Below, one piece after another: positions 35,795 through 36,167 of a stretch of DNA of 64,000 nucleotides (the first letter of the stretch is position 1; every line of letters starts with the position of its first letter). The translations under genes were made by a program, and so were the position numbers. The notes beneath the pieces are model-generated. The model made no database searches. It was not told the DNA's origin and saw nothing but the letters and a program-made list of their open reading frames with translations. This stretch comes from Lampris incognitus (lineage: Eukaryota; Chordata; Actinopteri; Lampriformes; Lampridae), in the NCBI RefSeq assembly GCF_029633865.1, contig NC_079223.1, positions 8,523,432-8,587,431 on the forward strand, given 5' to 3'.

Positions 35795-36167
35795 TCTAAA
35801 CTACTAATAAGACACGTTAGCCCATAGTTAACGGGTGTGACCCTTTAGCCGAGCGGTTAGTGATGCCGCCTTGTGGTGCAGTACACCCCGTATCGAATCC
35901 CGCACCGGGCAAGAAAATAACCGGTTACATTGGTGGCAGCGGTGGGATCCGGAAGTGTGCAGATCCTCAGAAGTCTCTTCGGAGCGCGGGAAGAACAAAC
36001 CGCGAGGGCGCGCTTCCGGGGAAGGTGACGACTGTAAACTACTAATAAGACACGTTAGCCCCTAGTTAACGGATCTGACCCTTTAGCCGAGCGGTTAGTG
36101 ATGTCGCCTTGTGGTGCAGTACACCTCGTATCGAATCCCGCACCGGGCAAGAAAATAACCGGTTACA
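35795..36167 (+). mobile_element. TRIM-like LTR element with tRNA-like LTRs and a tRNA-Leu primer site
   Basis: Two direct repeats of 135 bp (35795-35929 and 36033-36167), the second with TG...CA ends, flank a 103-bp interior with no coding capacity. One base after the left repeat is TGGTGGCAGCGGTGGGAT (35931-35948), an 18-nt match to the complement of a vertebrate tRNA-Leu 3' end including CCA. A purine-rich stretch precedes the right repeat. The LTR body carries TAGCCGAGCGGTTAGTG (box A-like) and TATCGAATCCCG (box B-like), resembling a class II tRNA. The two LTRs differ at about 4-5% of positions, suggesting moderate age. The size is that of a terminal-repeat retrotransposon in miniature; the autonomous partner is not in the window. 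Confidence 0.75.

Follow-up and report, generated by a model that had tools for sequence, protein, structure and literature searches.

The 373-bp sequence at positions 35795-36167 of the window (by which we mean the whole 64-kb stretch of Lampris incognitus DNA analysed here) is very probably a TRIM (a non-autonomous LTR retrotransposon) that belongs to the Helenus kind, an assignment that takes in the structural steps shown below. Helenus elements are TRIMs that carry a tRNA-derived sequence in their LTRs together with a primer site and a polypurine tract (Kojima 2024, Biology 13:119, PMC10886601). The kind of element is thus one that was published in 2024 and has already been reported from fish, and in that sense the finding is largely ordinary; the initial annotation of this DNA was not aware that a family like this had been described in fish, and the same paper covers zebrafish and other fish (PMC10886601). 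What our analysis contributes is an independent confirmation of a recently named kind, with statistics for its 4-bp target-site duplication, and a correction of the tRNA type that had been proposed for its LTR, which on sequence evidence is class I and His-like.

Anatomy of the element and of its tRNA-like stretch

The focal element consists of two direct LTRs of 135 bp around a 103-bp interior. The left (5') LTR (35795-35929, + strand) has TCT...ACA ends, TGT having been changed to TCT, and the right (3') LTR (36033-36167, +) has TGT...ACA ends; the two are identical at 129 of 135 positions, with 6 differences, and the pair was recovered in a repeat scan as a 138-nt repeat with a spacing of 238. 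The interior (35930-36032, +) is non-coding, and its length is insufficient for coding. One base past the left LTR lies an 18-bp tRNA-Leu primer site, TGGTGGCAGCGGTGGGAT (35931-35948, +), with no mismatches, which we take to be complementary to the 3' end of tRNA-Leu (Leu-TAG). This 18-mer has a single match in the 64-kb window when up to 3 mismatches are allowed, and at least one such match was found in 4 of 100 shuffles. Toward the other end of the interior is a short purine run, GGGGAAGG (36018-36025, +), that is a possible polypurine tract; because the run stops 7 nt short of the right LTR, this assignment is a weak one.

Each LTR also contains a box A and a box B of the tRNA type. Box A of the left LTR, TAGCCGAGCGG (35846-35856, +), has no mismatches to TRGCNNAGYGG, and its box B, GTATCGAATCC (35890-35900, +), has 2 mismatches to GGTTCGANTCC; the boxes of the right LTR, at 36084-36094 (+) and 36128-36138 (+), likewise show 0 and 2 mismatches to these two patterns. 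The initial annotation had placed the 135-bp repeats, the 103-bp non-coding interior, the 18-bp Leu primer site and the two boxes correctly to the base, and this anatomy supports its broader proposal that the sequence is an animal counterpart of Cassandra, a miniature LTR element in which the LTRs carry a tRNA-like promoter of the Pol III type and a Leu primer site follows. It had named the lack of a box excess over shuffled sequence as a ground for rejecting its reading, and such an excess is present: no box pair at tRNA-like spacing in 1000 dinucleotide shuffles of either LTR equalled the focal one. On the antisense strand of the LTR, 871 of 1000 shuffles equalled the sequence for a box pair. 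The changes in box B relative to the consensus fall at G53 and T54 and recur in each of the five places where the window has the 17-mer exactly; because box B deviates at these two positions, the focal promoter may be weak.

T8, with which box A opens, and T55, inside box B, lie 47 nt apart in the two focal LTRs. The same distance is 45-48 nt in 17 class I tRNAs and 56-57 nt in 4 class II (Leu/Ser) tRNAs, ranges that derive from 21 of 23 human tRNAs (Arg-TCT and Cys, with values of 33 and 30, were excluded as mis-parsed). Local alignment of the right LTR with the 23 human tRNAs gave scores of 43 for His, 31 for Ser-GCT, 27 for Asp and 26 for Leu-CAG, the best of 300 shuffles reaching 32; with the left LTR the scores were 39 for His, 31 for Asp and 30 for Leu-CAG, the best of 300 shuffles reaching 36. 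Only tRNA-His exceeds the best of the shuffles in both LTRs, and its match spans the anticodon loop TTGTGG. Since the spacing is 47 nt and His gives the top score, the tRNA-like stretch of the focal LTR is, as far as its sequence tells, class I and His-like.

The stretch itself probably does not function as a tRNA, because ARAGORN and Rfam both miss it and it folds like shuffled sequence. ARAGORN called no tRNA in the focal element, nor did Rfam at its gathering score, and an Rfam search of 35700-36300 at E up to 5 found no tRNA, its sole match being a chance lncRNA; the predicted folding of the stretch was no better than that of shuffles (z -0.34, with 63 of 200 shuffles doing equally well). 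The motif TTTT is absent from the focal element, as Pol III read-through would require; since 510 dinucleotide and 573 plain shuffles, out of 1000 of each type, are free of it too, its absence is uninformative.

Copies, target-site duplication and a second family

A 132-bp piece of the right LTR served as query against the genome (1.48 Gb in 537 contigs), and 40 of 916 candidates were scored. At least 41 LTR matches of the focal family are listed, a lower bound on its copies because 40 of the 916 candidates were scored; in two or more cases a pair of these matches represents both LTRs of a single element. Eight loci (L001-L008, where L001 is the window element), which hold 9 of the 41 listed matches, were examined. 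Paired LTRs with an interior are present at L001, L002, L005 and L008. At L006, four LTRs with three interiors form a tandem array; solo LTRs occur at L003 and twice within L004; and a single LTR with part of an interior is present at L007. The primer 18-mer is exact at L001, L002 and L005, is altered by one base in L007, L008 and one of the L006 interiors, and is partly deleted in the remaining two L006 interiors. Copies that combine paired LTRs with the primer site, on which the initial annotation had made its reading depend, are therefore found, for example at L001, L002 and L005. Differences between the two LTRs of an element, per 135 positions, number 6 at L001, 3 at L002 and 3 at L005, and the L008 pair shows 3 mismatches and 5 gap positions.

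The window itself holds further pieces of the focal family: a solo LTR of 138 bp at 39735-39872 (-), with a box spacing of 46 and flanks that match at 2 of 4 bp; a solo LTR of 107 bp with an internal deletion at 18497-18603 (-), whose flanks match at 3 of 4 bp; and an LTR fragment at 17192-17231 (+) made up of the last 40 bp of the LTR, the similarity itself extending over 41 bp and thus a base beyond the LTR. In the scanned copies of this family box A is perfect and the box spacing is 46-47 nt. Compared position by position, 18 focal-family LTRs are very alike, in a sample that was picked by similarity to the window copy. The focal element belongs to a mobile family. Exact-pattern scans of viral and prokaryote contig collections, where little was to be expected, gave 0 matches.

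The target-site duplication seen here is 4 bp long. We compared the flanks of ten insertions from the focal family and three from the second family described below (13 in all), L007, which is without a right LTR, and the 17192 fragment having been dropped; LTR ends were set by hand from TGT...ACA, and the flanks of the second family had already been seen when its ends were set. Over 4 bp, 42 of 52 flank positions agree, and none of 5000 re-pairings of the right flanks reached this count. The mean of the re-pairings was 23.2 of 52, well above one quarter, which indicates that the flanks are alike in make-up even between insertions. Taken by insertion, the agreement covers all 4 bp in 5 of the 13, 3 bp in a further 6 and 2 bp in the remaining 2; the flanks of the focal element (caag/ctag) agree at 3 of 4 bp and those of the L006 array at 2 of 4. 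For lengths of 3, 5 and 6 bp no clear excess emerges, 3218, 3519 and 1205 of 5000 re-pairings, respectively, reaching the observed counts.

A block of about 70 nt in the LTR (positions 16-85) matches two further places in the window at 77-79%; together with a third place these are LTR-like units of a second family, each starting with TGT or TGC and ending with CGCTACA. All three are solo LTRs. The one at 57971-58129 (+) has an exact 4-bp duplication (ATAT/ATAT) and a box spacing of 47; the one at 54544-54712 (-) has flanks ATAC/ACAC that agree at 3 of 4 bp and a box spacing of 55; and the enlarged one at 41289-41585 (-) has an exact duplication (GTAT/GTAT) and a box spacing of 46. The enlargement is due to a tandem array of a 28-bp unit (41387-41558, -; 6.1 copies, 85% matches) that derives from the stretch upstream of box A. 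In these three units, in the same order, box B has 1 mismatch throughout and box A has 2, 1 and 3. Their box pairs are weaker than the focal one, being equalled by 3 of 1000 shuffles for 57971-58129 and by 28 of 1000 for 41289-41585. When scored against the tRNAs, 57971-58129 (aligned as 57971-58150) gave Gly 42, Asp 39 and Glu 38, with 33 as the best of 300 shuffles, and 54544-54712 (aligned as 54551-54720) gave Gly 32, under the best of 300 shuffles (40). Judged by its sequence, the second family is of the same kind as the focal one and is clearly diverged from it elsewhere in the LTR, which makes two families within 64 kb.

The block common to both families, whose start lies about 36 nt ahead of box A, takes in sequence that is not tRNA-like. 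It might be a functional signal, either a start site with the repeat region used in strand transfer or a site of recognition by the partner element, and this we consider a rather improbable conjecture; if it were true, the shared block would help to explain how a TRIM whose LTR is unlike that of its partner still comes to be mobilised. Locus L002 also has two stretches, at 811-883 (-) and 3074-3123 (+), that match part of the LTR at 80-81% and may be additional members of the second family.

Relation to known elements, proposed mechanism and alternatives

The published animal families of Helenus have 4-bp duplications, those of vertebrates use tRNA-His, -Leu or -Lys as primer, and the stated lengths run from 311 to 1263 bp, the original screen having been for elements of <1000 bp (PMC10886601). 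Fish families related to zebrafish LTR-11_DR are described from Cypriniformes, a catfish and milkfish, and further Helenus families from coelacanth, sterlet and paddlefish; LTR-11_DR itself is represented in zebrafish by 5575 LTRs and is found in tandem arrays (PMC10886601). The focal element resembles these in being a TRIM with a tRNA-like LTR that carries box A and box B, in its Leu primer, its 4-bp duplications and its tandem arrays, and in its length of 373 bp, which lies within the stated range. It differs in its nearest tRNA, since the fish families are aligned with tRNA-Val-CAC (in a figure legend of that paper), whereas here His comes top and Val is outside the eight best of 23. The comparison of the focal family with named Helenus families, including LTR-11_DR, was made at the level of published descriptions; families were clustered in that work at 75% identity and 75% coverage (PMC10886601). 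Two other known systems share the TRIM form and a Pol III promoter in the LTR. Cassandra of green plants differs in that its promoter is derived from 5S rRNA and in its length of 565-860 bp (PMC10886601), and Ajax of nemerteans, which in addition shares the tRNA-Leu primer site, differs in its 5S rRNA-derived promoter and its 5-bp duplications (PMC10886601). A 2026 meeting report mentions Helenus in passing (PMC12859917), and other TRIM papers deal with an ant, bivalves, a tapeworm and Cassandra; judged by titles and abstracts, the papers searched include no further treatment of tRNA-bearing TRIMs beyond Kojima 2024 and PMC12859917.

We envisage that Pol III would start near box A and box B of the 5' LTR and continue across the interior and on into the 3' LTR. 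A reverse transcriptase acting in trans, whose most likely source is a Ty3/gypsy element, would then prime on tRNA-Leu at 35931-35948, the integrase of the same Ty3/gypsy-type element would insert the cDNA, and recombination between LTRs could give rise to the solo LTRs and the arrays. Transcription by Pol III, taken as a step by itself, is probable; for Helenus it was not validated, according to Kojima 2024 (PMC10886601).

That step is the only one touched by an alternative in which an element of the same TRIM kind is transcribed by Pol II and the tRNA-like stretch is the decaying relic of an old SINE. Box B is indeed altered at two conserved positions, neither ARAGORN nor Rfam matches a tRNA model to the stretch and its folding is unremarkable, and in the second family the spacing is 55 rather than 47 at 54544-54712, with 3 mismatches in box A of the enlarged 41289-41585. 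A relic would not readily account for a perfect box A with a spacing of 46-47 nt in the scanned copies of the focal family, nor for the spacing of 47 retained in the clearly diverged copy at 57971-58129, and we think this alternative unlikely, if worth keeping in mind, as compared with transcription by Pol III.

Two other readings concern the nature and origin of the element as a whole. The tRNA-like boxes in each repeat and the short length would also suit a dimeric tRNA-derived SINE, in which two monomers around a spacer are moved by a LINE; the TGT...ACA ends, the 18-bp primer site one base past the left repeat, the 4-bp duplications without clear excess at 3, 5 or 6 bp, the solo repeats and the arrays that share single LTRs all speak against it, and we regard it as extremely improbable. 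The initial annotation had itself gone beyond a TRIM in suggesting that the LTR promoter is of class II tRNA type and was perhaps acquired by capture of the element's own tRNA-Leu primer. It is true that the start of box A (TAGCCGAGCGG) resembles the box A of Leu and Ser tRNAs and that Leu-CAG, at 30, is third best for the left LTR. The T8-T55 distance of 47 nt is, however, that of class I and not of class II, the nearest of the 23 human tRNAs is His, with a match that includes the anticodon loop, and Leu-CAG scores lower than His in both LTRs; in the families of Kojima, moreover, the primer site and the tRNA-like stretch are without complementarity (PMC10886601). Spacing and alignment scores contradict the pairing of a class II tRNA with capture from Leu, and we hold such an origin to be very unlikely. 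A Helenus-kind TRIM with a class I, His-like stretch in its LTR is the reading that we prefer.

Other features of the window

A fold-back element at 18766-20068 has inverted arms of 588 nt that lie 127 nt apart and are about 100% complementary (a rounded value, with at least 1 mismatch). It begins in TA repeats beside CACTACCGTTCAAAAGTTTGG and has the look of a Tc1-like element that is recent, non-autonomous and equipped with giant inverted repeats. Just downstream of the focal element, at 36493-36742, is a 41-bp tandem repeat of 6.2 copies with 94% matches. An equilibrative nucleoside transporter frame lies at 44161-44814 (-; Pfam Nucleoside_tran, E 3.3e-49), and acidic serine and lysine/proline/alanine repeat frames extend over 4852-7168 (-); the frame at 4852-5640 gave no Pfam match, and the frames of this region presumably resemble NOLC1/Nopp140. 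Finally, a tRNA-headed repeat at 41680-41780 (+), with a box A/box B spacing of 46, resembles fish V-SINEs, and box pairs like its own occur at 1510 (-), 31713 (-) and 48446 (-).
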